Shown here: positions 10,392-29,501 of the stretch, piece after piece
How the letters are laid out: every line of letters starts with the position of its first letter
Position numbering within the stretch: position 1 is the first letter of the stretch
DNA from: Prevotella sp.
Lineage (GTDB): Bacteria; Bacteroidota; Bacteroidia; Bacteroidales; Bacteroidaceae
Direction: 5' to 3'
DNA: 40,303 nt
NCBI GenBank assembly: GCA_017470055.1
Contig: JAFUFD010000086.1
Coordinates: forward strand, 1-40,303
The notes under the pieces: generated by a model
The model's input: only the letters and a program-made list of their open reading frames with translations
The model's database searches: none
Told to the model about the DNA's origin: nothing
Translations under genes and position numbers: made by a program

Positions 10392-13300
10392 TGAAACCCG
10401 TAGAGATCGAATTTCTTATGCGCGGCAACCTCCACAGGGGGCTAGGCCAGGCACAGCAGCAGGCAGTCCAACTTGACGGCATCCTGAGGCGTGTCGGAGC
10501 CACTGTCGGTATCGCGTTCGGTACCGCACAGGCTGTGGACTTCGCCCATAAGATCATGGATGTCCGCGGGGAGATGGAGAGCCTGCAGATGTCCTTTGAG
10601 ACACTGGCGGGTGCCTCCAAGGGTAACAAACTATTCAGCGACATCAAGGAGTTCGCAACCAATACCCCGATGATGATGCAGGATCTCGCCAAGGGGGCGC
10701 AGACCCTACTTGCCTTCAACACGGAGGCGGAGAACGTGATGCCCATCCTCCGCCAGATAGGAGATATCTCCATGGGCGACGCCCAGAAGTTCAACTCCCT
10801 CGTGCTTGCCTTCTCGCAGATGTCGTCGACGGGCAAACTCATGGGGCAGGATCTCCTTCAGATGATCAACGCAGGCTTCAACCCGCTTGTGGTCATCTCA
10901 GAGAAGACCGGCAAGTCCATGGAGAGACTGAAAGACGACATGTCGAAGGGCAAGATCACCGTCGATATGGTCGCTGACGCATTTGCCACCGCCACCGCTG
11001 AGGGCGGTAAGTTCCACGGGATGCTGGAGAAACAGTCAAAGGGAGTCCAGGGCGCGATGAGCAACCTGCAGGGCGCATGGGAGAATTCCTTGAACGATAT
11101 CGGCGAGAAGACCCAGGGGGTGATGATGGACGGCATAGAACTCGCCACCCTCCTCGTGAAGAACTACGAGCAGGTTCTTGACGTGCTGGCGGGAATCGCC
11201 GTCGCCTATGGCACCTATAAGGCAGCCTTGATGGCATGTGTCACCATCGAGAAGGCGCGCAACATGGCGGATATGATCCGGCTGGTGATGATGTACCGCA
11301 AGGAGATGGGACTATTGACAGCAGCCCAGAAGGCGTTTAACCTCGCTGCGCTCAGGAATCCCTATGTCATGATAGCGGCAGCCCTTGCCGGGGCAGCAGT
11401 AGCCGTCTATAAACTTGCCACCGCAGACAATGCGGCGGAGGCGGCTCAGAAAGACCTTAACAAGACTGTTGAGAAGGGTGCTAAAGCCTTGAACGACCAT
11501 CAGGAGGAACTTGACCGCCTTACCAGTACGGCTAATGACGAGGCTGCGAGCACTACAGCGCGTAGTGACGCTATGCAGCAACTGATTGACAAATACCCTA
11601 ATATCATCAAGAAATACATCGATGAGAAGGGACATCTGAAAGACATACTCCAACTGAAGCACGAGATTGCCATGTTGGACGGGAGTGAGACAGCCAAGAG
11701 CCTTGCGGAGAAAAGGGAAAAGGCACAAAGATACCTTACCCTCTATAAAAGGAGATTCCAAGGTCTGTCACAAGAGGAGTGGACAGAGTACTCCAGACTG
11801 AAGAAAGAGGTTTGGGATCAGCAGGGATTCTGGACGAAGGCTGGCTATGGCTGGGGAGATGACAAGTTTGTCAGAGACTTCTATCAAGGGCAACTCCCCG
11901 GGCTCAAGAAGGCGGCAGCCCGTGCCAATACCGAGAATGTCCTTCGTGAGTTCAATTTCGGGCTTACGGAGAAAACGGATCAGGAACTGGAGGCAATGCT
12001 GAAGGTCGCCAGGTCATCACTGGACAGACTCAACCAGAAAACCATAGCGGCAAAGGATGCCCTGACCAATGACTACCTTACGGAGGGTGACTGGATGGAG
12101 CGTATTAGTACCATCAGCGGCATCCTCGACAAGAGGCATCCTAAGAAACCAGAGACACCCGCCAAGCCAACCAAAGGAAAGACCGCCCTGGAGACAGAGA
12201 CAGAGCGTAAGCAGAAAGAGGCTGACGCCCAGGTTGAACTTGACAAATATACACGTAACATGGTCCTCGCCACCCGACAGTCTGAGTTGGAGATCAGACA
12301 GTCACGCCTTGACGCACAGGAGGAGGGTCTTACCAAGGAGGTGGAGCAGATCAGGATCAACTACGACAAACTGCAACTTGCCAACGAGCAGCGCAGGGAG
12401 CAGATGGTCGAGCAGATGAAAGCCGCTGAGCGTAAGCAGTGGGAGAAAGACACCCCCAATGCGGCAAAGGAAGGCAAGGTGTTCACCTCCAGGATAACCG
12501 CTGATGACTTGACTGCCGAGCAGAAGAGAATCCTCAGCGAGTATGAGAAAGCAGCGGAGCAGTACAAGGAGTCAGCCACCGCCTCTGCGGTGAAGGATAT
12601 CACCAGCCAATATATCAGGGACTATGGTGACTATCAGCAGCAGCGTGAGTTGATTATCCGTGAGGGTAATGAGAAGATATCCCGCCTGATGCGTGACTAC
12701 GAGCAGGCGGAGGATGCCAATGTAAGGACTGCCATCCGTATGCAGGCTAACGGTGCCCGTAAGGAGATGGAGAAAGGAATATCCGAACTGGACTTCAAGC
12801 ACCTGAAGGACTCCATTGACTGGGAGACAGTCTTCAATGACATCGATAAGGTCTCCACAGGATATCTGCAGGATCTCAAGACCAAGTTGAAGACAGCACT
12901 GGACACCAAGGATATCACAGCGGAGAATGCCAAGGTCCTGTCGGAGAAAATCCGTGAGATAGAGGACCGTATCACAGTCAGGACCGATTTCCTTACCCAG
13001 TTGCTTCCGGGACTCAGGGAGCGCAAGCGTCTGACAGAGGAGGCGGCACAGGCAGAGGACGCATACAGGAAAGCCATTGCCAAGGAGGGTGATGCGATGA
13101 ATAAGGTCATCGCCACCAAGAAGGAGATTAAGGCTGCCCTTGACAGTGTCGATATCCGTGATGCCCTCGGTCAGAGAATAACTATTGAACTGGAGGCTAT
13201 CAGTGAGGAGAACAAAGAGAATCTCCTTCAAAACATAGACAAGGGCTCGGAACTGTACAAAGCCCTCCTGAGACTCTTTGAGAACCTCGCCGAGGACAAT

Positions 13301-14810: not shown

Positions 14811-15278
14811 ATGGACGGGATACTAGCAGGACAAGTAATAGTCAACGACAAGGACATCTGGACCTCTTACGGTGTGTTCCTGGCAGAGGAAAGCGAGGGA
14901 GGCATGGATAATCTCTCTGCCATACTTACGCCATCACCCACCAAAGAGCATACCGCTGTCAATATCAGGGAGCAGAACGGTGAGAAGCATTCCTCCACGC
15001 TGACAGTGGCTAATGAGGCGCGCGACGTGACACTCCACTTCGCCCTGTACGCTCCGTCAAAGGCGGAGTGGTTCCGCAGGTACATCGCCTTTATCAATTT
15101 CCTGAAGACTGGGGAGAACGGGTGGCTCAACATCAGTTTCCCAAGTATCTCCATCACGATGAGAGTGTACTATCAGAGTGTCCAGGACAAACTCAAACCG
15201 CTCTCATATCTGTGGAATGAGGGCATGCATGCCGGACGCTTCAAGGTCAAGTTCCGCGAGCCAAACCCCATTATATAA
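14811..15278 (+). CDS. Distal tail (Dit)-like protein
   Basis: A 155-residue protein whose ATG lies one base after the tape measure stop. Gene order (tape measure, this gene, large tail-tip protein) is that of Dit in siphophages, the ring linking tail tube to the tip. The sequence has a Dit-like start (VNDKDIWTSYGVFLAEES), then a central beta-rich part with VTLHFALYAPSKAEWFRRYI and a W/F/Y-rich end (YQSVQDKLKPLSYLWNEG, AGRFKVKFREPNPII). The assignment rests on order, size and general character, not on a diagnostic motif. Confidence 0.65.
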   Translation: MDGILAGQVIVNDKDIWTSYGVFLAEESEGGMDNLSAILTPSPTKEHTAVNIREQNGEKHSSTLTVANEARDVTLHFALYAPSKAEWFRRYIAFINFLKTGENGWLNISFPSISITMRVYYQSVQDKLKPLSYLWNEGMHAGRFKVKFREPNPII

Positions 15279-15296
15279 CGTTTGAATACTGATTGA

Positions 15297-18200
15297 ATGC
15301 TACTCACACTATACGACAGATATCACCAGAAGAAAGCCGACCTGTCACCCAATGACAGCAGCCGGCAAGAGAAGGAGATCCAGAGTGACAATATCCTGGC
15401 ACTCTCCTTCACGCTCTATGAGTGTGTCAATGTGGAGGTGAACGACTACTTGGACTTCATGGGTGAGCGGTATTGGGCGATAGAGCGATATCGTCCCAAC
15501 GAGGTCAACAGCCAGCAATGGAGTTATGATCTGAGGCTCTACGGCATTGATAGCCTTATTAAGCGTTATCTGGTGCTCAATAAGGTGGACGGGACCACTA
15601 ACCCTATCTTCACGCTGACCGCACCGCCCGTAGAGCATGTGCGCCTGATTGTCGGTGTCATCAATGAGGAGATGGGTACCACCGACTGGAAGGTGGGCAC
15701 GGTGGAGGGGACGGAGAATGTCACCGTCGACTATGAGGGCAAGTACTGCCATCAGGGTCTTGAGGAACTTGCGAAGAAGACGGGTACGGAGTACTGGATA
15801 GAGGGTACCACCGTCAACCTCTGCCGTTGTGAGCATGGCGAGGAGATTACGATGGGATATGGTAGCGGGCTTGTCAACATCAGTATTGACAAGGCAGACA
15901 ATGTCGCATTCTATACCAGGCTATTCCCTGTCGGGAGTTCCCGGAATATAGACCCAGAGAGATACGGATACCCAAGGCTCCATTTGCCAGGAGGACGTGA
16001 GTACGTCGATATCAATACGGAGGAGTATGGTGTCATCCATCATTTCGAGAAGGATGCTTTCGCAGATATCTATCCAAGGAGAGTCGGCACAGTGTCATCC
16101 GTCCGCAAGGAGACAAGGACTGGGGATGACGGGAATCCCTTCGATATATATTTCATCAAGGATGACGGTCTGGAGTTCGACCCAAACAACTATATGCTCC
16201 CAGGTAAAGTCCTCCGTGTCTCTTTCCAGGAGGGAAGTGAGATTGCCGGTCTGGGCAGTGAGGAGGATGGCACCTATTTCTTTGAGGTCAATTACGACAG
16301 TAAGACCAAGGAGTTCGAGATCATCACCCTCTTCCCCTATGACGACGGATCACAGTTGCCTGGTGGCAACCTGATACCCGCAGTAGGAGACCAGTATATC
16401 CTGTGGAACCTGCGCATGCCCGACGAGTACTACCCGCTGGCGGAGCGGGAGTACCAGGAGAAGGTCAATGAGTACAACCGCCAGAACGCCCTTGATGTCA
16501 CCAAGTTCCAGGGACAGACAGATCATGTATGGATAGAGGATAACGATATTGTCCTGACTGTCGGTCAGCGTATCCGTCTGGAGAGCAGCCAGTATTTCCC
16601 CGCCAAAGGATATAAGAGCACCAGAATCACCAGGATAAGCCGCAGGGTAAACTTGCCGACCATAATGGATATTGAACTCTGTGACGCACTGTCGACAGGG
16701 ACGAAGGAGAAACTCAACAATGATATCGCAGATGTCAGGAACTACGCGAAGTCCATCAAGCAGTCCATTTCTATTCCTGATATTATCAAGACAGGGGATG
16801 GTACCCTGCCGACTGACAATAACCTGTTTTCGGCTAAGCGTGTTCTCAATGATTTCCTCTCGAAGAACCTCCCCGGCACAGCCAAAGAGGTTATAACCTT
16901 TCTCAAAGGCATAATCGTCAAAGCAAAGAGTTACTTCAAAGGTATTGAGAATGAGGGCGATATCATCAACTCGGGAAATATAACCAACGACGGCGATATT
17001 GCCAACACGGGATCAATCGCGACCAAGAACCTAGTGGTCACAGGCAAGGCGACCTTCATGTCCGTGGAGATAGAGGAGGTCAAGGCTGCGGGTGGTATGA
17101 TTGTCGAGAGTCCCGGACGCTTCCGCGTCGACAAGGTGGCTCTCCTCGACGATATCGGTGCCCAGCGCACCGCCTTAAACAAAGATACGGGCAACACGGA
17201 CAGGGTGATCCGCTGCTACCAACTTGCAAGAGATGACCGTGATCGTCTCATTCTTAACGAACTACGCCCAGGTGACCAGGCGCTATGCATGACTTTCAAT
17301 GTCGACCCAGGGAATACGGACGTTGCGACCACCAACCGCTACTGGTGGCGCAGGGTCCTTGCCGTCAGCACCACCCCTGAGATCTTGACGGAGGATGACG
17401 GCGGCACAAACCCCTACCTCTGGGCGGACATATCACTTGACGACTATGACGACTCCTTCGAGACGGTGAATGGTGAACTCGTCACCCTTGGGGACAGCGG
17501 CACAGTAAAGGCTGACGTTCCCGCTGAAGGCGACGAGACTGTAGTGCTCGGTCATCGTTGGGGAGAGGACACCGACGAGGACAGACAGGGCGCATGGGTG
17601 TCGTCAGCATACAAGGGCAACGATCCCCTGCTAGCCAACAAGGCTCCATACAAGGCGCAGTACTGGGGCATCGACGACTATGACCTCTCCAGCCACCTCA
17701 TGACCTACTTCGCCCGGGGAAAGAACCATATCGTTGGTACCGTGGAGATGTCCTCTGACTCCAAACTCGGCAGCGAGGTCCTCACAGAGACACTCCGCGG
17801 ACTCCGCTCCCAGGTCAATGAGGTCAAGAGCCAGGCGGACAAACAGATCGTCATCTGGTTCGGCGAGGAGATACCCACGCTCCAGAACGAGCCCGCCTGC
17901 GAGTGGGCGGACGACGAGGCAAAGATCCTGCATGAGAAGGATCTCTATTACAACAAGGCGCAAGAGACTGCTAACGGGAAAGGACGAGCATGGTCGTGGG
18001 AGAGGATTGAAGGAGTCTGGACTTGGAGAGAGATTACCGACAAGGACGTACTTGCTTCCCTGGAGGCGGCCGCCGCTGCCCAGAGAGACGTCAACAGTGT
18101 CAAGACCAGACTGGACGACTGGGCATCCGACGGGAAAATCTCCCCAGCGGAGAAAAGAGCGCTCGCCTCAGAATGGGCAGTCGTAAACGAGGAGTACGCT

Positions 18201-20364: not shown

Positions 20365-23300
20365 ATGGCTATAACAAAACTAAGATTCCCGGAGAAACTC
20401 ACAGGTGATCAACTCTCCGCAGAAGAGTTCAACCGCGTCCCCTCCAAAATCGACGAGGTTATCGACGCGATGAACGAAAAAGTTGGCGACATCCGATTCG
20501 AGGGCGGACAACTGGTGCTATACGACGCACCAGACGGCAACCGCATCGGGGCTGTCAATCTGTCCGGCACTGTTTACAGCGTGGTGCTTGCCAGTGACAC
20601 CACCCCTGTATTCTACGTGCTGACATCGGAGGACACGCGGTATATCTCCGTGACCCCCACAACACAGAGCGGGACTATCGGAGGATCCATGTCCGACTTC
20701 GTAGAGGACTACGACTACACCGTAGCCGTCGACAACGGCAACGGGTCGTTCCGAGAGGTCGTCAGCGGCTTTTGCCGTAGCGGATCCTCCATACGAGAGA
20801 ATATAAGGTCATACCTTGCCGTCGGCTCAAACCGTCTGAGGCTTACCGTCACAGGCCAGGAGTCCGGGCAAGTGAAGACGCTGATATATACGGTCACCGT
20901 AACGACCCTTTCGCTGGAAAGCCAGTTCTCATGGTGGAGACCTTTCATTGAGGGACAGTCTTTTGCTGTCGACGGTCTCCTCTTCGGGGGTAACCTGCAG
21001 AAGACGCTCTACGTTTGTATCGATGACGACCCCGGTCAGACCTACACGGCATCCTTCTCCTCCGCCACCTCATACGTCACTACGGCTTACTCCTTCGACC
21101 TGTCGTCGAGATTCCCCACAGGGGGTACCGGCGTTCACAAGTTGGAGGTGTGGATGGCGGGCGAGGGAGTGGAGACCGCACACTACACGTACCATGTCAT
21201 GTGTGTCGCCGCGTCCGACGTAAGCCGTGTGTCTCTTGTCTGCGTCAACTCTGTGGCCTCCAAGGCGGTCAACTATACCTCACAGGCGCTTTTCGAGTTC
21301 GCCACCTACAACGCCACCTCCGTGACATTCGATATCTCCGTGAGCGACGGCAACACCCGTTGGGCGGTGGTCGAGGGACAGGTGGTGTCCGTCCAGACAC
21401 AGACACGCCAGCAGTATGCCACGGCGCTGGAGGTGGACACGGAGATTATGGACTCGCTGGAGATGACCGCCGTCGCCACGGCTGGGGACTCCAGTCAGAC
21501 CGTGTCGCTGCCCGTCGACAACTCCAACAGTTACGCGGCAACGGAGGGTGCGGCCTTCTACATGAACGCTGCGCTGCGAACCAACGGAATGGCGAGCAGG
21601 ACAGAGATCCCGAATACCGCCCCAGGGGCTTCTGTGACGTCCTACCCCGCCCAATGGCATGGCTTCGCCTGGTCGGTAGACGGATGGAATCAGGACAGTG
21701 ACGGCAACAGGTGTCTCGCAGTAGCCGCCGGATGCGGGGTCAGCGTACCAGGGCTGAAGCCTCTGGCGACGACAGCCACCGGCAGCCTTACGCTGGAGAT
21801 GAAGGTGAGGATGGCTAATATAGCGGACTATGACACGCCCATACTGTCCTTTATGTCGACGGACGACTATAGCGAGGCGACGACCTGCGGCATCATCCTC
21901 TTCCCGACCAGGATTGTGGTGCTGAGCACGACGGAGCGTGAGGTGACGCCCCAGAGCGTGAACCTCTCGGAGAACTCCATCCTGCATATCGTCATTGTCC
22001 TCCAGCGCCAATACGGAGCCACGGGGCGTAATCTCTGCCGCATCTACGTCAACGGTATTCAGAACGCCGTGTTCGAGTATGCCGGCAACGCCTCATTCGG
22101 CAACGGGTCCCTGGTCATGGGGCAGGAGTCCTCCGACCTCTACCTGTATATGATGCGCTGGTATGTGGGACGCGCTCTAGAGCATCGTGACATCCTGGCA
22201 AACTTCCTGAACACCATCAAGGACGACGCGCGATTCACAAGATCCGGTGTCCGCGCGGACAATAACATCATGGACGGCGGTGCTGTCAGTTATGACCTCT
22301 GCAAGGCGGCTGGCTACAACTGTATGGTAATCGAGACGGAAAATGACGTGCCGGTTCCGAGCCTGGAGTACACCACGGGGGCGAAGACAACCCTGACCAT
22401 GGAGTACAACGACCATCCCGAGTGGAACTTCTCCGTCCAGAACGCCCCGATTGGCGGTCAGGGCACCACCTCCATGCGATACTACAGATGGAACTTCCGC
22501 TGGAAGATGAAGAAGGACTGCGTGTGGACGTATGCCGACGGCACAACGGAAACGGGCAAGGGGGGATACATAGCGGGCAGGAGCCATCCCAAATGTGAGA
22601 AGGTCACCGCCAAGAAGAACTACGCCTCCAGCCAGCAGGGACACAAGATGGGTGCCACGGCGATGTATGATGAGTTGTACGAGCAACTGGGACTCAAGAA
22701 CTCGCTGCCGGCCATAGAGGACAGGGTGGCGGTATACCAGCACCCCGCCATGGGCTTCCAGAAGTTCGCCGACGGCTCGTATGTGTTCATCGGACTGTAT
22801 ACGATCGGTCCCGACAAGGGAGACAAGAAGACCTTCGGATATGACACGGATACATACCCGTCACTGCTGTCACTGGAAGGTCCCAACCATGCGCCTCTTG
22901 GCACTCGCTTCCTGCACCCCTGGACAGACGACGTGGACTACGATCCGTCACAGGAGACCCTGACTTTCGGCGGAGAGGAGGCATGGGACGTCGACGTATG
23001 TCCCTACGAGACAGACGGCACCAGTGACGACTGGGTGCCAGAGAACCGGCAACTCATCCTTTCCCTGCTGGAGAGGGAATGGAAGCCCGCCTACGACATC
23101 GTCTACTACTGCTCACCATATCTGCGGTCGCTGTCGGAAATCGGCATGACGCTGGAGCAACTGAACGCCTCCCCGGGGACGTTCCGCAACCGCATGGACA
23201 TCCTGGGCAACCGCAAGAACGAGGTGCTGCAGTTCTACGACGAATCCTACAATCTCATCTATTATCGTACCGCCGCGAGCCGCTATGAGGTTCTCACCTC

Positions 23301-25812
23301 ACACAATATGCTGGAGTATCTGGCAGAGTATCTCACCACGCATACCCCGGACACGTCCCAGTTAGTGCTGGCGCGTGCGGCGAAGTTCCGGGCGGAGGCG
23401 GACAACTATTGGAGCATCGACGACGCCTGCTACCACGACTGCTTCTGTGAGTTGACAGGATCCTCAGACAACCACGCCAAGAACTCATACCCGTTCAAGT
23501 TCAGGACGCTGGACGAGGGTGGTCGCTGGGCTTGGAGACAAGACGACCTCGACACCATCATGGCGACCGACAACAACGGACAGTCCACGAAGTCGTACAG
23601 CATTGAGGTGGGGGACATCACTGAGGATGGCACCGACATCTTCCAAGGGGCGTCGTCGGTATTCTGGACGCTCATCGGAGGTGTTTTCCTCTCAGAGAAG
23701 AGGCAGATGATGACACGTATGGTGAACTCCCTCGTTGCCATGGCACAGCGTCTGGGTGTCAGCGGAGCCTATGTGCATGAGTCCGTACTGAATATGTTCT
23801 CGTATTATTTCTGGGACCGCTCCGCAAGGTATTTTCCGGCAACCGCATACAACGAGGACGCCGCATGGTCATATATCCTGCCCTGGAGCATCGACCCGTC
23901 CAAGACATACAACAACGTGTACCCGCTGACGCAGGCGCTCGGTGACCAGGTCGAGGCGGAGAGGCTATGGGTCACAAGGCGCATTCTGTATATTTTCTCC
24001 CTGTACCAGATAGCGGGATTCACAGGCTCCGGAGAGGACGGCTACGGACGTGTCGAGTTCACTCCCGCAGAGACTTTCACCTTCCATCTGGTTCCCGCTG
24101 TCGACATGTATCCCAGTGGAAACAGGGGAGGTGGCAATGACGTGCAGGGAGGACGTACCAGAGCCGGGGAGCAGTGCGCCATAACCGCGACGTCGGACGG
24201 CTCCACCACCTTCTACCTCAAGGCGCTTGACTGGCTCACGTCACTGGGCGACCTCTGCTCCCTGGTCCTGACCAATCGTGGCGGTGACGCATCAGTGGGA
24301 GCCTCCTTCTCTGTCAGCGGCAAGCGGCTTCGGTTCTTGAAGGTGGGAGACGAGGATGCCGCCAAGGTGCGCTTCAATGCTGGAAGCCTTGCCGTCAATG
24401 GTGAGGCGATGGAGGTTGTCGACGCACGTAACGTGGTGTCGCTCAGGAGTAACGTGTCCCTTCTCGGATGTCCCCGTCTGAAGCGAGCCCTGTTCAATGG
24501 TACCAACGTGCCTACTCTGTATATTCCTCGTGGAGCCAAGATTACGGAGGTGGCTTTCCCCAGCGGTCTGCAGACTCTTTTCCTGCATACTCTCCCTTTG
24601 CTCCAGGAGTCCGGGATGAGTATTCCCGATGCCGCACTGACCACCATCACGGGTATTTACTACTACCAGTGCCCTGGTATTTCGCCGTTCTCCATCCTTC
24701 GCCGCATCTTTCAGACGGCAGGCAACGTGCTGCAGTTCCTTACCATGATATGGACGGACGATGTGAGTGGCACCAGCGAGGATCTCGACATGCTTGCCGC
24801 CTTCGCGGGACACTCCTACGACCCGGAGACGGGAGAGGGGTATGGAAGTGTCGTGTTCGACGCGGACAACAACATACTGAGTAACTCATCGCAGCGTCCT
24901 GACCTGCAAGGTGTGATCAACATAGCGGGCAACGCCTATGAGGACAGTGCCAACGCGCTTCGGGAGTATTTCGGAGCATCCTTGACGCTGAACATCACGG
25001 GTGCCTACTATATCCGCTTCTCCGACGATGTAGTGCGTCAGTTGTGCGCCACGAACTGGGGCGACGGGACCGGTCTGACACGTGAGCAGGCGGCTGCGGT
25101 TAGTTCCGTGGGGACTATATTCATGGGGAACACGGAGATAGTCGCCTTTGACGAGTTAAGGCTTCTCTCTGGGCTCGACAGCATATCGGAGAGTTATGGC
25201 GGACAGACCGCGGAGGGAGTGCCCCTGCAGAGCACGTTCTACGCATGCACATCTCTTGTAAGGGTCAGCATGCCACCCGTGAATATCACCTACGGAAATA
25301 TCCGAGCCTTATATGGAGACAGGTCGCCTTTGGCCGGCTGCACATCGCTTACACATGTAGACTGGGGGATGTGCCATCCAGCGTACACCCATATGCTATA
25401 CTATGGATGCACGTCTCTTGATTATTACGACGGCATCCTGCCCAAGGGACTGACAAGTATAGGCAATGCTATGTTCTTCAACTGCAGGTCCCTCACTCGA
25501 ATGATATTCTATGAAGGAATAACGGAGTTCGGGGAGTCGTTGTTCCAAAACTGCCTCGCACTTCGCTACGTGGTATTCCCGGCATCGACGAAGGTCATCT
25601 CTTTGGTTAGCCTTACACGTGACGCATATACAGGTGGTATCCATATCGCTATTAGGGCAATTAATCCGCCCGCATGCTCTACCGGAGGCTATAATCGCAC
25701 CATGCACTTCTATGTCCCCGATGAGTCGGTGGACACCTACAAGGCTACTCCCGGTTGGAGTACATATGTCGGGTATATCAATCCCATATCCAAGTTCCCC
25801 TACACGATCTAA
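20365..25812 (+). CDS. Giant tail fibre with phase-variable leucine-rich-repeat tip
   Basis: An 1815-residue receptor-binding fibre. The N-terminal attachment part (MAITKLRFPEKLTGDQLSAE) is followed by beta modules and a concanavalin/LamG-like domain at about 395-610. A large domain at about 680-1160 has features reminiscent of CotH-like atypical kinases: GGQGTTSMRYYRW with WK (697-714), SSDNHAKN (1033-1040) and WRQDDLDT (1057-1064). From about 1580 to the end come BspA-type leucine-rich repeats (CTSLTHVDW, NCRSLTRMIFYEG, CLALRYVVFPA). A 58-bp repeat at 25100-25157 marks the beginning of the exchangeable part (about residue 1580 on). An inverted second version of this part lies just downstream, so the tip can be switched. 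Confidence 0.88.
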   Translation: MAITKLRFPEKLTGDQLSAEEFNRVPSKIDEVIDAMNEKVGDIRFEGGQLVLYDAPDGNRIGAVNLSGTVYSVVLASDTTPVFYVLTSEDTRYISVTPTTQSGTIGGSMSDFVEDYDYTVAVDNGNGSFREVVSGFCRSGSSIRENIRSYLAVGSNRLRLTVTGQESGQVKTLIYTVTVTTLSLESQFSWWRPFIEGQSFAVDGLLFGGNLQKTLYVCIDDDPGQTYTASFSSATSYVTTAYSFDLSSRFPTGGTGVHKLEVWMAGEGVETAHYTYHVMCVAASDVSRVSLVCVNSVASKAVNYTSQALFEFATYNATSVTFDISVSDGNTRWAVVEGQVVSVQTQTRQQYATALEVDTEIMDSLEMTAVATAGDSSQTVSLPVDNSNSYAATEGAAFYMNAALRTNGMASRTEIPNTAPGASVTSYPAQWHGFAWSVDGWNQDSDGNRCLAVAAGCGVSVPGLKPLATTATGSLTLEMKVRMANIADYDTPILSFMSTDDYSEATTCGIILFPTRIVVLSTTEREVTPQSVNLSENSILHIVIVLQRQYGATGRNLCRIYVNGIQNAVFEYAGNASFGNGSLVMGQESSDLYLYMMRWYVGRALEHRDILANFLNTIKDDARFTRSGVRADNNIMDGGAVSYDLCKAAGYNCMVIETENDVPVPSLEYTTGAKTTLTMEYNDHPEWNFSVQNAPIGGQGTTSMRYYRWNFRWKMKKDCVWTYADGTTETGKGGYIAGRSHPKCEKVTAKKNYASSQQGHKMGATAMYDELYEQLGLKNSLPAIEDRVAVYQHPAMGFQKFADGSYVFIGLYTIGPDKGDKKTFGYDTDTYPSLLSLEGPNHAPLGTRFLHPWTDDVDYDPSQETLTFGGEEAWDVDVCPYETDGTSDDWVPENRQLILSLLEREWKPAYDIVYYCSPYLRSLSEIGMTLEQLNASPGTFRNRMDILGNRKNEVLQFYDESYNLIYYRTAASRYEVLTSHNMLEYLAEYLTTHTPDTSQLVLARAAKFRAEADNYWSIDDACYHDCFCELTGSSDNHAKNSYPFKFRTLDEGGRWAWRQDDLDTIMATDNNGQSTKSYSIEVGDITEDGTDIFQGASSVFWTLIGGVFLSEKRQMMTRMVNSLVAMAQRLGVSGAYVHESVLNMFSYYFWDRSARYFPATAYNEDAAWSYILPWSIDPSKTYNNVYPLTQALGDQVEAERLWVTRRILYIFSLYQIAGFTGSGEDGYGRVEFTPAETFTFHLVPAVDMYPSGNRGGGNDVQGGRTRAGEQCAITATSDGSTTFYLKALDWLTSLGDLCSLVLTNRGGDASVGASFSVSGKRLRFLKVGDEDAAKVRFNAGSLAVNGEAMEVVDARNVVSLRSNVSLLGCPRLKRALFNGTNVPTLYIPRGAKITEVAFPSGLQTLFLHTLPLLQESGMSIPDAALTTITGIYYYQCPGISPFSILRRIFQTAGNVLQFLTMIWTDDVSGTSEDLDMLAAFAGHSYDPETGEGYGSVVFDADNNILSNSSQRPDLQGVINIAGNAYEDSANALREYFGASLTLNITGAYYIRFSDDVVRQLCATNWGDGTGLTREQAAAVSSVGTIFMGNTEIVAFDELRLLSGLDSISESYGGQTAEGVPLQSTFYACTSLVRVSMPPVNITYGNIRALYGDRSPLAGCTSLTHVDWGMCHPAYTHMLYYGCTSLDYYDGILPKGLTSIGNAMFFNCRSLTRMIFYEGITEFGESLFQNCLALRYVVFPASTKVISLVSLTRDAYTGGIHIAIRAINPPACSTGGYNRTMHFYVPDESVDTYKATPGWSTYVGYINPISKFPYTI
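25100..25157 (+). repeat. 58-bp inverted repeat, inner copy (in fibre gene)
   Basis: Identical over all 58 bases to the reverse complement of 26450-26507; identity stops abruptly on both sides. It encodes the GTIFMGNTEIVAFDE stretch of both tips. Inside are short opposed arms TCCGTG and CACGGA (25105-25136), a possible recombinase core. Confidence 0.95.
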
Positions 25813-25824
25813 ACTATTGGGATG

Positions 25825-26499
25825 TTACCTCAGCGTCCCCATCGCCCTGTACCCGTCAGGTAGTTCGCTGATGGGCTTGACGGTCTGGCTACTCCAGCCC
25901 TCAGTCGCTTGATAAGCCTCCAAGGAGTCATCGGGGACGTAGAAGTATCTGGTCCTGTTGTCCGAGGTGTCGCTACTCGACAATTCTGGTGGTATCATAG
26001 CCTTGACCACTATATGTATTCCATCTCTGCAGGCATCCCAGCATAGACGATATAGGCTCATTTTCCTGGTAGTCGCAGGGAATTCCACGTAGCGAAGTGC
26101 GAGGCATTCTCTGAGAATCTCCTGCCCGAACAGTTCCATACCCTCATAGAATATCATTCGAGTGAGGGAAATGCAGTTGAAGAACGCCATGTCGCCTATA
26201 CTTGTCAGTCCCTTGGGCAGGATGCCGTCGTAGTAGTCAATAGATCTGCATCGGGAGAAAAGTCCGTATGTGATTAAGACGGAACTATCGCCCCAATCCA
26301 CATGCGTGAGTGCCGTGCAGGAATAGAATGGTCCATGGTCGTGGGCGTGGGAATCCCATGATATCTCTACAGATGGCATTGATATGCGTCGTAGCGAACT
26401 GCAACTTATGAAGAGTTGCTTATAATTGGTCACGCTGGTAAAATTAGCGAACTCGTCAAAGGCGACTATCTCCGTGTTCCCCATGAATATAGTCCCCAC
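25825..26499 (-). CDS. Silent alternative C-terminus of the tail fibre
   Basis: A 224-codon open frame that opens at a GTG inside the 58-bp repeat and has no promoter-proximal start of its own. It is homologous along its length to the end of the fibre: GTIFMGNTEIVAFDE identical, then divergent leucine-rich repeats, a shared DYYDGILPKGLTSIG, NC.SLTRMIFYEG, CLALRYV.FPA.T and FYVPD.S. Divergence is concentrated in the segments between the conserved repeats, as expected for alternative receptor specificities. It follows the recombinase gene on the same strand: the recombinase stop (26506-26504) is four bases from this GTG, so some translation by coupling is possible, though the natural use is after inversion. 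Confidence 0.85.
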   Translation of the reverse strand: MGTIFMGNTEIVAFDEFANFTSVTNYKQLFISCSSLRRISMPSVEISWDSHAHDHGPFYSCTALTHVDWGDSSVLITYGLFSRCRSIDYYDGILPKGLTSIGDMAFFNCISLTRMIFYEGMELFGQEILRECLALRYVEFPATTRKMSLYRLCWDACRDGIHIVVKAMIPPELSSSDTSDNRTRYFYVPDDSLEAYQATEGWSSQTVKPISELPDGYRAMGTLR

Positions 26500-26507
26500 G
26501 GAACTAA
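26450..26507 (-). repeat. 58-bp inverted repeat, outer copy
   Basis: Perfect inverted match of 25100-25157. Its outer four bases overlap the stop region of the recombinase gene, so inversion leaves that gene intact. Confidence 0.95.
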
Positions 26508-27487
26508 TTACGGAAAGCCTTCTTGACCTCTCGGCTTATTGCCGTGTCATGTAAAGCCGCATAGTGCTCAGTTGTGACAATAGATTTGTGACCTAGGATT
26601 GACTGTATTACGGGTAAAGTGCACTTCCTAGACAATAGAACCGTCGCACATGTTCCACGCGCGCAATGGTATGTGATATGTTTTCTGATGCCGAGACTGT
26701 CCATAATCTTTGATAGGACAATATTAGTCTTGCAGTTAGTGGGTAGCGGGAATGGTCTCTCCGGATTACTTGCCCCTCTGATAAGTTCCAAAGCCTTGCC
26801 GTCAAACATATAGCCTATGGGGATTCGTACCTCTCCTCCGGTCTTGCGCATTCTCATTATAAGCCATTGGGATCTCACGCATGCCGATGTGACTCGAAGC
26901 ACGTCTGAGTATCTGAGACCCGTGTAGACGCTGAAGAGAAATCCGTTAAGTACCATCTTCTCATCCCCGCTCAGATAGTCAGCATGATTTTCCAACTTCC
27001 GGATTTCCCTCTCCGTCAATGTGTCCTTACGGGTCCTCTCTGTCTTAATTTTGAACTTCCTGAAAGGGTGTGCAGTGATCAGATCATCCGTGTAGGCTAT
27101 TGTAAGATAATGGCGTAGGATCTTCAGGAACTTGGCGATCGTATTCACGGCATATCCTCTCGCCTGCAGATAATCCTCGAAATCCTCCGGCAGTTCTTCT
27201 GTCAGTCCAGAGAACGTGAGTTTCGGACTGAACTGCCGCAGCACACGAAGGGTGGCGTTATGGTTATATCTTGTGCCTACAGTTATCTGGGCACACTCAA
27301 TTCTCTCCCTCATCCAACCGATGAAGGATTGCCTGCTCCTGACCTTTACATGCCGTGGACTCTCGGATAGTTTGTTAAGGTCACCGACCCTCCTGACATA
27401 ATAATGGTTATCAACCTGCACTTGGATAAGCGCGTTCCTCCCTTCAAGGGCTTCTGCCATGACATTAATTAATTTCTGTATGTTCAT
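26504..27487 (-). CDS. Tyrosine recombinase, probable fibre-tip invertase
   Basis: A 327-residue protein with an N-terminal SAM-like core-binding domain (about 45-140) and a C-terminal catalytic domain. All six residues are present: Arg192 (TGLRYSDV), Lys215 (MRKTGG), His274 and Arg277 (HCAR), His300 (LGHKS) and nucleophile Tyr309 (TTEHYA). The usual RH(T/D) after the second Arg is RGTC here. The gene abuts the invertible segment and its stop lies in the outer repeat, which strongly suggests it inverts the tip. A phage with Mu-like ends does not need an integrase for insertion. It is probably read from the leftward promoter at 27677-27706 through a structured leader. A role in integration or resolution is the alternative. 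Confidence 0.88.
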   Translation of the reverse strand: MNIQKLINVMAEALEGRNALIQVQVDNHYYVRRVGDLNKLSESPRHVKVRSRQSFIGWMRERIECAQITVGTRYNHNATLRVLRQFSPKLTFSGLTEELPEDFEDYLQARGYAVNTIAKFLKILRHYLTIAYTDDLITAHPFRKFKIKTERTRKDTLTEREIRKLENHADYLSGDEKMVLNGFLFSVYTGLRYSDVLRVTSACVRSQWLIMRMRKTGGEVRIPIGYMFDGKALELIRGASNPERPFPLPTNCKTNIVLSKIMDSLGIRKHITYHCARGTCATVLLSRKCTLPVIQSILGHKSIVTTEHYAALHDTAISREVKKAFRN

Positions 27488-27502
27488 TTTGCGCTTTGAT
27501 AT

Positions 27503-27534
27503 TTGGGATTTTCATGACTTCTTACTATCTTTGC
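27503..27534 (+). promoter_or_regulatory. Rightward promoter crossing the recombinase leader
   Basis: TTG (27503-27505), 20 bp, TATCTTTGC (27526-27534): a full Bacteroidetes consensus. It would drive the HTH gene at 27700 with a leader of about 160 nt. Confidence 0.65.
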
Positions 27535-27545
27535 AGGTACAAAAA

Positions 27546-27673
27546 TCCCCGGTCGGCAGTTTCAGTATTGACGCCAATCATATACCACACGCAAATGCGC
27601 ATCCGCCACTCGACCGGGGAGAGACCCCTTCCGTGACAGACACGCATTTTTCTGTGTTGATATATGATTGGCG
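27546..27673. repeat. Two interleaved perfect inverted repeats
   Basis: Repeat A is TCCCCGGTCG (27546-27555) with its complement at 27611-27620. Repeat B is CGCCAATCATATA (27572-27584) with its complement at 27661-27673. The order A-B-A'-B' is not nested, so RNA from either strand could form a pseudoknot or choose between two helices. Read leftward, helix A is followed by a run of five U (27545-27541), an intrinsic-terminator-like end just before the recombinase gene, whereas helix B would form earlier. A GGGG-AGAGA-CCCC hairpin competes with A'. Confidence 0.7.
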
Positions 27674-27676
27674 ATG

Positions 27677-27706
27677 CAAAGATAATAAATTTTTCGGATA
27701 TGACAA
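27677..27706 (-). promoter_or_regulatory. Leftward promoter for the recombinase
   Basis: On the minus strand, TTG (27706-27704), 19 bp, then TATCTTTG (27684-27677). It faces the rightward promoter at 27503-27534, so the two transcripts overlap by about 130 nt. Its -33 box lies in the first codons of the HTH gene. Confidence 0.65.
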
Positions 27707-27942
27707 TTTATGAAATACTGAAATTTAACAAGGAGATGTTATTGCGTCTGCGGCAGGCTGGCATACGGCTGGATGACTGCCAGTATATTGACCTGTATAC
27801 GGATTACCAAGACCTGCGTTTTAGGGGGGGTAAGATTACGTATATTGTCACTGTGTTGGCTGAGAGATATTCCATAAGTGTCCGTAAGGTGTACAGCCTG
27901 ATTAGACTTTTTGAGAGTGACTGCACAAATGGTGCAGCATAA
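27700..27942 (+). CDS. Small HTH protein, possible Mor/C-like late regulator
   Basis: 80 residues from the ATG at 27700; an earlier in-frame ATG at 27664 would lie within the promoter and repeat region. The N-terminal half is helical (EILKFNKEMLLRLRQAGI) and the C-terminal half contains KITYIVTVLAERYSISVRKV followed by YSLIRLF, which reads as a helix-turn-helix (A-x-x-Y-x-I-S-x-R-x-V-Y). This resembles the DNA-binding end of Mor/C-type activators of Mu-like phages. Such a protein could bind the twin operators at 5286-5333. A role in governing the recombinase, with which it shares a crossed promoter region, is an alternative. Assignment is tentative. Confidence 0.55.
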   Translation: MTIYEILKFNKEMLLRLRQAGIRLDDCQYIDLYTDYQDLRFRGGKITYIVTVLAERYSISVRKVYSLIRLFESDCTNGAA

Positions 27943-28006: not shown

Positions 28007-28837
28007 ATGAGAAAGCAATACTTGTCGGCTCCGCTTCCATTTCAGGGACAGAAGCGGATGTTCGCAAAGGAGTATATCAAGGTGCTCCACCAGTTCCCTG
28101 ACGGAACAACATTCGTGGACCTGTTCGGTGGCTCTGGCTTATTATCACATATAGCCAAGTGCCAGAAGCCGCATTCCACAGTAGTATATAATGACTTTGA
28201 CGGCTACCGCCAGCGTCTGGAGGCATTGCCTGTTACCAATGCGCTGCTGGCGGAACTGAGGGAGATTGTGGATGTGCCACGCCACAAGCCCATATTGGGA
28301 GAGGCAAAGGAGCGTGTGCTGTCATGCGTCCGCAAGTATGAACGCGACTGCGGCTACATCGACTATATCACGCTGTCCTCGTCGATAATGTTCTCCATGA
28401 AATACGCCACCAAGTTCTCAGACTTGGAGAAGGAGACATTATATAATAATATAAGGACGACGGACTTCCCACCGTGTACGAACTACCTCGATGGGCTGAC
28501 TATCACCTCCTGCGACTACAGGGAGGTGTTTGAGCAGTACAAGGACGTGCCAGGCGTGGTGTTCCTGGTTGACCCTCCGTATCTGAGTACAGACAGCAAG
28601 ACCTACAAGATGTACTGGAAACTGTCTGACTACCTCGACGTGCTGACGGTGCTTGCTGGACACCGGTTTATCTATTTCACCTCAAACAAATCCTCTATTA
28701 TGGAACTTTGCGACTGGATGGGTAAGCATCCAGAACTGGGCAATCCGTTTGAGAACTGCCAGCGCCGTGAGTTCAATGCCCACATGAACTACAGCGCATC
28801 TTACACGGACATCATGCTATATACGAAAGCCGCTTGA
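28007..28837 (+). CDS. DNA N6-adenine methyltransferase (D12 class)
   Basis: A 276-residue SAM-dependent adenine methylase. In order: motif X-like PLPFQGQKRMFAKEYI near the N-terminus, SAM-binding motif I VDLFGGSGLL (about 37-46), a variable target-recognition region, and catalytic motif IV VDPPYLS (about 187-193). This order is that of the Dam/D12 class. No restriction partner lies nearby, so it is an orphan enzyme, likely protecting phage DNA or regulating phage genes. Methylase or DNA modification genes at the right end are common in Mu-like phages (compare Mu mom). The ATG at 28007 follows its own promoter. Confidence 0.88.
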   Translation: MRKQYLSAPLPFQGQKRMFAKEYIKVLHQFPDGTTFVDLFGGSGLLSHIAKCQKPHSTVVYNDFDGYRQRLEALPVTNALLAELREIVDVPRHKPILGEAKERVLSCVRKYERDCGYIDYITLSSSIMFSMKYATKFSDLEKETLYNNIRTTDFPPCTNYLDGLTITSCDYREVFEQYKDVPGVVFLVDPPYLSTDSKTYKMYWKLSDYLDVLTVLAGHRFIYFTSNKSSIMELCDWMGKHPELGNPFENCQRREFNAHMNYSASYTDIMLYTKAA

Positions 28838-28862: not shown

Positions 28863-29501
28863 ATGAACAAATACTATCAAATACTGGGTAAGGTTCTGGA
28901 GAAAGGAAAGACACAGACCAACAAGAAGGGAAACATACGCTACCTGCTGAACGAGCAGTTGTCATTGACCCCAGCCGACCTTCTCGATATCTTCGAGAGC
29001 CACGGTATAGCCAGAAAGAAACTGAAGAATGAGTTGCAGTTGTTTATGCAAGGTGAGCGAAACGTGGAAAGGTACCGCAATGTGGGCATCAACTGGTGGG
29101 ATTATTGCGGAAGTGTGTTAGTGAACAGTTACCCGACCTACTTCGAGAAGTTGCCACCACTCATTGCGAAGATAAACTGTGAGAAGCGCAACAGTAAGAA
29201 CTATGTGCTGTTCCTCGGCGAGACTGGCGCAGAAAGTAATCAGGCACCATGTTTAAGTCTCGTCCAATTTCAAATAGATGAAGGCGAACTCGTCGTGTCC
29301 GCTTACCAAAGAAGTAGTGACGCAAACTTGGGACTCCCTGCAGACATCTACCATCTGTACTTGATGGCACGACAGATAGACCTGCCGCTTAAGTCCATAA
29401 CTCTCAATCTCGGAAATGTACACATCTACGAGAACAACATCGTCCGAAGTCAACAACTCTTAAATGGCGACGAAAATGTGAGATTTGACCTTAATGTGTA
29501 A
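28863..29501 (+). CDS. Thymidylate synthase-family protein, possibly dCMP (hydroxy)methylase
   Basis: 212 residues that follow the thymidylate synthase pattern: YYQILGKVLEKG at the start, LFMQGERNVERYRNVGINWW (TS: FL.G.TNI.YL...I.IW), catalytic Cys130 in QAPCLSLVQFQI, phosphate-binding AYQRSSDANLGLPADI (Arg150, Asp153) and GNVHIYENN (His187, Tyr189). The residue matching E. coli Asn177, which selects dUMP, is Asp161. Asp at this site is characteristic of dCMP-specific members such as T4 dCMP hydroxymethylase. The His after the catalytic Cys is Leu. The protein is shorter than TS (264 in E. coli) and lacks the GPVYG-x-Q region. It follows the methylase by 25 bp. It may supply a modified cytosine nucleotide; an inactive relative cannot be excluded. 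Confidence 0.75.
   Translation: MNKYYQILGKVLEKGKTQTNKKGNIRYLLNEQLSLTPADLLDIFESHGIARKKLKNELQLFMQGERNVERYRNVGINWWDYCGSVLVNSYPTYFEKLPPLIAKINCEKRNSKNYVLFLGETGAESNQAPCLSLVQFQIDEGELVVSAYQRSSDANLGLPADIYHLYLMARQIDLPLKSITLNLGNVHIYENNIVRSQQLLNGDENVRFDLNV

Follow-up and report, generated by a model that had tools for sequence, protein, structure and literature searches.

The DNA studied here, referred to below as the window, is the entire contig C5 (40303 bp; JAFUFD010000086.1) of a 3.39-Mb draft genome of Prevotella sp. (GCA_017470055.1), and it contains part of a prophage. Comparison of its fibre locus with related loci supports the reading that this phage encodes a two-state DNA inversion switch of the fibre tip, operated by the adjoining tyrosine recombinase, and we put the probability of this reading at roughly 0.86. 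In the proposed mechanism, the recombinase would exchange strands between two inverted copies of a short core, GTTCC-GTG-GGGAC, located near fibre codon 1580 and at the stop codon of the recombinase itself, and the 1292-bp segment between the repeat arms would turn round. A constant shaft of about 1580 residues would then carry one or the other of two homologous leucine-rich-repeat (LRR) tips, the recombinase gene and the reading frame staying intact in both orientations, and particles with different tips would presumably bind different receptors. Action of the recombinase on the core sites, ongoing inversion in the window phage and a switch of receptor are what we infer from the sequences compared. 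The features concerned are the following (positions in the window):

20365..25812, + strand: fibre gene, 1815 amino acids (aa) in the present orientation (open reading frame; LRR_5 near the C-terminus; constant part homologous to relatives with other tips)
25100..25157, + strand: left arm of the 58-bp inverted repeat (repeat scan, frame reading)
25103..25115, + strand: site core GTTCC-GTG-GGGAC in the fibre gene (core at the equal fibre codon in relatives)
25158..25812, + strand: tip 1, LRR, expressed in the present orientation (Pfam, frame reading, AlphaFold2 model)
25825..26449, - strand: tip 2, LRR, silent in the present orientation (open in the fibre frame via the right arm; Pfam; AlphaFold2 model)
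26450..26507, - strand: right arm of the inverted repeat (repeat scan, frame reading)
26492..26504, - strand: site core GTTCC-GTG-GGGAC at the recombinase stop (core pattern scans)
26504..27487, - strand: tyrosine recombinase, 327 aa, presumed invertase (PF13102 and PF00589; conserved residues; clade of 13)

Repeat Arms and Alternative Tips

The two arms (25100-25157 and 26450-26507) are complementary at 58 of 58 positions and lie 1292 nt apart. Apart from arms and tips, the 14 kb scanned had no better inverted pair than one of 29 nt at 79%, and both arms match only each other's places within the whole draft genome. The tips themselves appeared as inverted nucleotide matches of 178 nt at 81% and 64 nt at 72%. 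The constant part of the fibre runs to about codon 1580 and is followed by tip 1: the left arm begins in codon 1579, GTIFMGNTEIVAFDE is read from residue 1583, and tip 1 ends the protein at residue 1815. In the fibre frame, the reading passes from the right arm into tip 2 and stays open until a stop codon with 25825 as its final base, for a fibre of 1805 residues in total. The stops of the two tips are separated by 12 bp, and the tips are 49.6% identical over 234 aa. The stop codon of the recombinase lies inside the right arm, so that inversion would leave the recombinase gene unchanged.

These readings bear out the description given in an earlier note, made from the letters of the window, of a perfect 58-bp inverted repeat whose arms lie at fibre codon 1580 and at a tyrosine recombinase stop, of two opposed and divergent LRR tips with stops 12 bp apart, and of a full fibre in either orientation. 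Pfam LRR_5 matched the fibre at 3.2e-11 and the tip-2 frame at 2.9e-15 (BspA-type LRR), as well as 19 of the 21 tips scanned (35 tips were collected from the family described below); the predicted LRR fold of the tips rests on this Pfam assignment. The AlphaFold2 models of both tips had predicted local distance difference test (pLDDT) values of 83.2 and 87.1.

A Short Site Core Common to the Family

The IMG/VR contig L016 carries a fibre 57/46% identical and a recombinase 48% identical to those of the window. No long repeat was found at its tip locus; 13 bp, GTTCCATCGGAAC, stand in the fibre after AAAVSS and again past the stop of a C-terminal recombinase fragment. These two places correspond to the arms of the window, which contain GTTCCGTGGGGAC. 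In Prevotella bivia (L053), a perfect 20-bp repeat with GTTCCATCGGGAC occupies the corresponding two places. The search pattern GCNGCNGTTAGTTCCNNNGGRAC was derived from these three sets of sites. The core reads GTTCC-NNN-GG(G/A)AC, and it occurs at the equal fibre codon in nine relatives and is repeated at least once behind it.

Scans of IMG/VR and of the species genomes were made after the pattern had been fixed. In IMG/VR, GCNGCNGTTAGTTCCNNNGGRAC was found in 12 stretches; the site shows fibre or tip homology in 10 (L016 again being one) and lacks it in 2 (L069, L077). The pattern with one more base was found in seven stretches of the species genomes; five are phage fibres (two in P. bivia, two in Prevotella vespertina, one in RUG13180), and the remaining two, from Photobacterium and Nitrosopumilus, have no match. 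No stretch of IMG/VR contained an exact match to a 41-bp part of the arm.

In each of the 11 records compared (with the P. bivia ends set apart), all sites have the same central 3 bp, and four kinds of centre (GTG, ATC, CTC, TTG) occur between phages; the ATC centre is found in 7 of the 11 records, mostly close kin. A constant 3-bp centre would fit a need for partner sites that match across the crossover, as may be expected from tyrosine recombinases in general.

Fibre-Tip Loci in Relatives

Nine relatives possess the fibre site and at least one further site: L016, P. bivia, L072, L073, L075, L078, L085, L097 and L103, where L075 and L085 are the first and second prophages of P. vespertina. 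In eight of the nine, a recombinase (41-49% identical) or a C-terminal fragment of one ends at the far site, and among these eight it is only a fragment that does so in L016 and L085. The recombinase of L072 ends 49 bp before the far site, and the recombinase gene of L103 runs in the opposite direction. At the larger loci the internal sites stand back to back, so that each segment contains two convergent tips. The window, L016, L072 and L085 have two tips each, L073 and L075 four each, L078 six and P. bivia at least four; L103 has six sites. Segments with convergent ends, putatively invertible, number one in the window and two or three in L075 and L078.

The tip-facing sites open 116-235 codons in the fibre frame at 34 of the 35 readable sites, against at most 49 in the other frames; a further two sites are cut by contig ends and two run into N. 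The core comes close to a palindrome, and matches facing away from the tips were left uncounted. The exception is L099, which has a recombinase and a site, no fibre in the 16 kb examined, and 34 codons. In G593 (L097), the assembly enters N straight behind both sites. By their layout, the relatives place the window as the minimal, two-tip form of a putative phage fibre shufflon family, and those with up to six apparently swappable tips suggest a working family of switches.

Exchange of Cassettes at the Core

The 35 tips were compared with one another. Left out of the count below are the match between the two window tips (82% over 180 bp) and one of 38 bp lying within two tips. Six tip pairs from different records were at least 80% identical, and in four of the six the position differs. 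An 85% pair has one tip on the P. bivia fibre and the other at an internal place in L078; an 87% pair is internal in L075 and on the fibre in L085, two prophages of one strain; a 95% pair adjoins the recombinase in L075 and is internal in L078; and the P. bivia pair adjoins the recombinase at one contig end and follows a spacer at the other (38 bp, to the contig end). Homology starts not with the very first base of the tip but one or two bases later, at the core's CC, and the bases to the left of it go with the position and not with the tip. A tip that one relative carries on its fibre is silent in another, and homology runs from the core onward, which indicates that cassettes have moved exactly there.

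At the P. bivia contig ends, tip B is joined to two different left flanks. Both ends lie in the constant region of the fibre, with 167 identical bp followed by 16 mismatches in 125 bp before the site; because of these mismatches, the ends may come from two copies of the prophage and not from one copy in two states. The P. vespertina A2879 prophages L085 and L075 have the ATC centre and one tip in common, L085 having the recombinase end only.

The Recombinase

The residues R192, K215, H274, R277, H300 and Y309, which we take to be the catalytic residues of the window enzyme, are invariant among three relatives. At E <= 1e-60, a profile of three recombinases had matches in 9 of 398 genomes of the genus, among them the genome of the window. 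The core lies between -1 and +49 bp of the stop in 9 of the 12 recombinases with an intact C-terminus, the background being 24 of 2385 tiles, real sites included. Outside these 12 stand the second fragment of L016 and the L085 fragment, both followed by the core, and L100, which matches the window enzyme to residue 309 only. Among 28 relatives from host genomes (32-40% identical), none has the core within 150 bp of the stop; inverted repeats of at least 35 bp lie near 16 of these 28 loci versus none of 30 recA loci.

Phylogenetic analysis placed 13 recombinases in one clade (100/99) inside the host-family tyrosine recombinases, with several long branches. The tree includes 26 of the 28 host-genome relatives and was built without the 396-aa integrases of L014 and L015. 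The record L019 (MT835728.1) was rejected as a phage relative of the recombinase, since ParA and plasmid-like genes adjoin it and no fibre match was found; it was kept in the tree, grouped with the phage rows, and falls outside the clade of 13.

The best plasmid matches of the recombinase are site-specific integrases of Bacteroides plasmids (best 25 of 170 records), and no Bifidobacterium record is among the phage recombinase matches listed (20 of 56 records). A B. uniformis plasmid (L134, NZ_CP072237.1; 8950-11632) has a 38% identical recombinase and, behind it, a 31-bp inverted repeat (29/31) enclosing two opposed homologous genes (36% identical), near a fimbrillin operon; to judge by its sequence, the two-cassette layout of the window occurs outside phages too. 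In L016 (11858-14069), a NUMOD/HNH endonuclease gene (11989-12906) lies between the full recombinase and the site-bearing C-terminal fragment.

Observations Against the Switch and Alternative Explanations

Several observations weigh against a switch driven by the adjoining recombinase. The core pattern was formed after the window and L016 had been seen, and for this reason the rarity of GTTCCNNNGGRAC in the window (2 matches versus 0.12 expected; 2 of 100 shuffles reach as many) is a post hoc figure. The core is absent behind the stop of the full recombinase of L016 and of those of L101 and L103; the L103 gene is reversed, the second fragment of L016 has the core, and L101 is near a contig end without a fibre. 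The fibre site is present in L070, L076 and L079, with no second site or recombinase in the DNA examined. The recombinase of L085 consists of its 34-residue end only, and the recombinase frame of P. bivia is broken. Finally, L017 (MT835639.1), with a fibre 30% identical, has a perfect 62-bp repeat and opposed tips at the equal protein position, but the core is absent, and the 23 kb examined contain no relative of the recombinase; another enzyme, perhaps in trans, would thus have to serve there. The tip pair of L017 is located at 15165-16357, and part of a third tip at 16911-17024.

If the segment were inverted by a recombinase acting in trans, from the host or from elsewhere in the phage, and the neighbouring gene were an ordinary integrase, both the tip pair of L017 and the vestigial recombinase of L085 would be accounted for, and trans action has been proposed for a second bifidophage locus, according to the part of that paper available (PMC6109161). 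We consider this explanation unlikely, given the core at the recombinase stop in 9 of 12 cases and the joint loss of recombinase and core in L014, L015 and G035. The fibre of these three is 80-81% identical to about residue 306 of a 320-residue query, which is the site region, and then divergent; they have one tip, no core and a recombinase reduced to its first 75 codons (158 codons in the L015 frame), so the core is gone wherever the recombinase is reduced to its start. Also, L014 and L099 have a separate 396-aa integrase, and the recombinase is accordingly not the integrase there. The observations listed against the switch do not exclude it in the window, but they show that the recombinase can be lost or replaced.

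It is less likely still that the switch worked in an ancestor and that the window holds a frozen remnant which no longer inverts. Degraded relatives do exist (L014, L015, G035, L085 and the left end of P. bivia, with its broken recombinase frame), and no orientation variants of the window phage were found, no close copy of it being present in the collections searched. Against such decay stand arms identical at 58 of 58 positions next to tips that are about 50% identical, an intact recombinase, intact tips and frames, and the six residues taken as catalytic, all kept. A false inverted duplication made by the assembly might be suspected in a draft of 125 contigs with an estimated contamination of 6.8%; it is highly improbable, being largely refuted by the equal layout in isolate genomes and independent viral contigs, and the tips, which differ at half of their residues, are not a single sequence folded back on itself. 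The proposal of the earlier note that a dedicated tyrosine recombinase inverts the fibre tip is thus well supported by comparison, through the shared core, the site at the stop, the exchange of tips at the core and the single clade, with inversion itself remaining a prediction from these patterns.

Setting of the Prophage

The genome of the window is congeneric with those of P. bivia DSM 20514 (G010) and P. vespertina A2879 (G003). The phage part is the left 29.5 kb of the window, with genes for a Mu-type portal, a Mu F-like protein, a terminase, a tape measure, tail proteins and the fibre; the contig begins within the phage. From about 29.8 kb onward the genes are of host type (M28 peptidase, RuvB, GcpE, sigma-54). 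The Mu transposase family PF09299 had no match in the own genome, and the control was likewise matchless in 14 of 14 genomes. No transfer RNA gene that could serve as attachment site was found in the window. A diversity-generating retroelement was considered and rejected, since no reverse transcriptase family was found among the 17 window proteins scanned with Pfam, fibre neighbours included.

At the right end of the prophage lie a D12-type adenine methyltransferase gene (28007-28837), which is found again next to the recombinase at several loci, those of P. bivia and P. vespertina among them, and a thymidylate-synthase-like gene (28863-29501). Between the recombinase and a divergent 80-aa gene, which has a counterpart by eye in P. 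bivia (L053 2363-2611), positions 27488-27760 contain interleaved inverted repeats: CGCCAATCATATA (13/13), TTACTATCTTTGCA (13/14) and TCCCCGGTCG (10/10). This is perhaps an operator region.

Comparison with Known Systems

The serine recombinases Gin and Cin turn the G segment of Mu and the C segment of P1, each of which contains two opposed fibre ends and has the recombinase gene beside it. The window likewise has opposed alternative fibre ends in one segment beside a recombinase gene, but its enzyme is a tyrosine recombinase (PF00589/PF13102). The R64 shufflon (Rci) has a tyrosine recombinase at the end of an array of convergent alternative adhesin C-termini; the window shares the convergent ends and the place of the recombinase gene, whereas R64 concerns the conjugative pilus of a plasmid and the window a phage fibre. 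The two are likened here by layout, sites and enzymes aside.

Comparisons with published systems refer to the available parts of the papers cited. Phage tyrosine invertases acting on receptor-binding proteins have been published (PMC6109161; PMC8778435), and the novelty implied by the earlier note was too high. In the Rin shufflon of Bifidobacterium prophages, a tyrosine recombinase lies beside alternative C-termini of the receptor-binding protein (PMC6109161), and Eggerthella lenta prophages have a Rin-like locus (PMC8778435). These loci and the window have in common a phage tyrosine recombinase beside variable ends and short crossover sites, placed both within the gene and at the cassettes. 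The Rin and Rin-like sites, of 11 bp (TTCCCTAACCC) and 8 bp (ttccgtat), differ from the core of the window, and the cassettes there are mostly in tandem whereas the window family has convergent pairs. Rin belongs to other hosts, and the tips of the window are BspA-type LRR; the two are set apart without a direct comparison of recombinase sequences. More than two cassettes, a trait of the Rin type, are not present in the window, which has two, but four to six occur in L073, L075 and L078.

Other comparisons concern Bacteroidales. One concerns the tyrosine DNA invertases of Bacteroidales genomes, such as Tsr15 of B. fragilis (PMC6109161). The window enzyme lies among host-family recombinases, but its host-family relatives are 32-40% identical to it and have the core behind the stop in 0 of 28 cases. 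The C3 phages of B. uniformis ('Meggiephages') showed a 2-kb inversion in a putative tail-fibre gene in sequenced stocks, with the tested hosts unchanged (PMC9727126). Like the window, they would represent inversion within the fibre gene of a Bacteroidales phage; they are known to us from a description that, in its available part, names neither enzyme nor site. No description of a fibre-tip switch in phages of Prevotella-type bacteria was found in the literature searched, which comprised titles and the starts of abstracts, the inversion catalogue of Milman et al. lying outside the comparison. In Hankyphages, the fibre is diversified by a retroelement (PMC12135933). Bacteroides phage BS-TP1 (L022, 6450-15057) has a fibre of distant homology, behind which come a protein annotated as a four-helix bundle and a reverse transcriptase. 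This is a like fibre type diversified by another route.

Significance

The principle is already known, from Rin and from R64; what is new here is the recombinase clade, the site, the LRR tips, the segments made of convergent pairs and the Prevotella-type hosts. One further idea, which we hold tentatively and regard as doubtful at present, is that each phage lineage has its own 3-bp centre, constant across its sites, so that cassettes would mix within a lineage or between co-resident prophages of the same centre and not across. If it held, prophages residing together, such as the two of P. vespertina A2879 with their ATC centres, would share one pool of fibre tips, and trans shuffling could reach a prophage whose recombinase has been lost. 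With the locus described here, a probable recombinase, its site and a cassette library become available for a fibre-tip switch in phages of Prevotella-type bacteria. The sequence would predict which prophages can switch tips, and at which position the crossover takes place. Thus, receptor switching on the side of the phage would become testable in this genus by simple polymerase chain reaction (PCR) in sequenced isolates.

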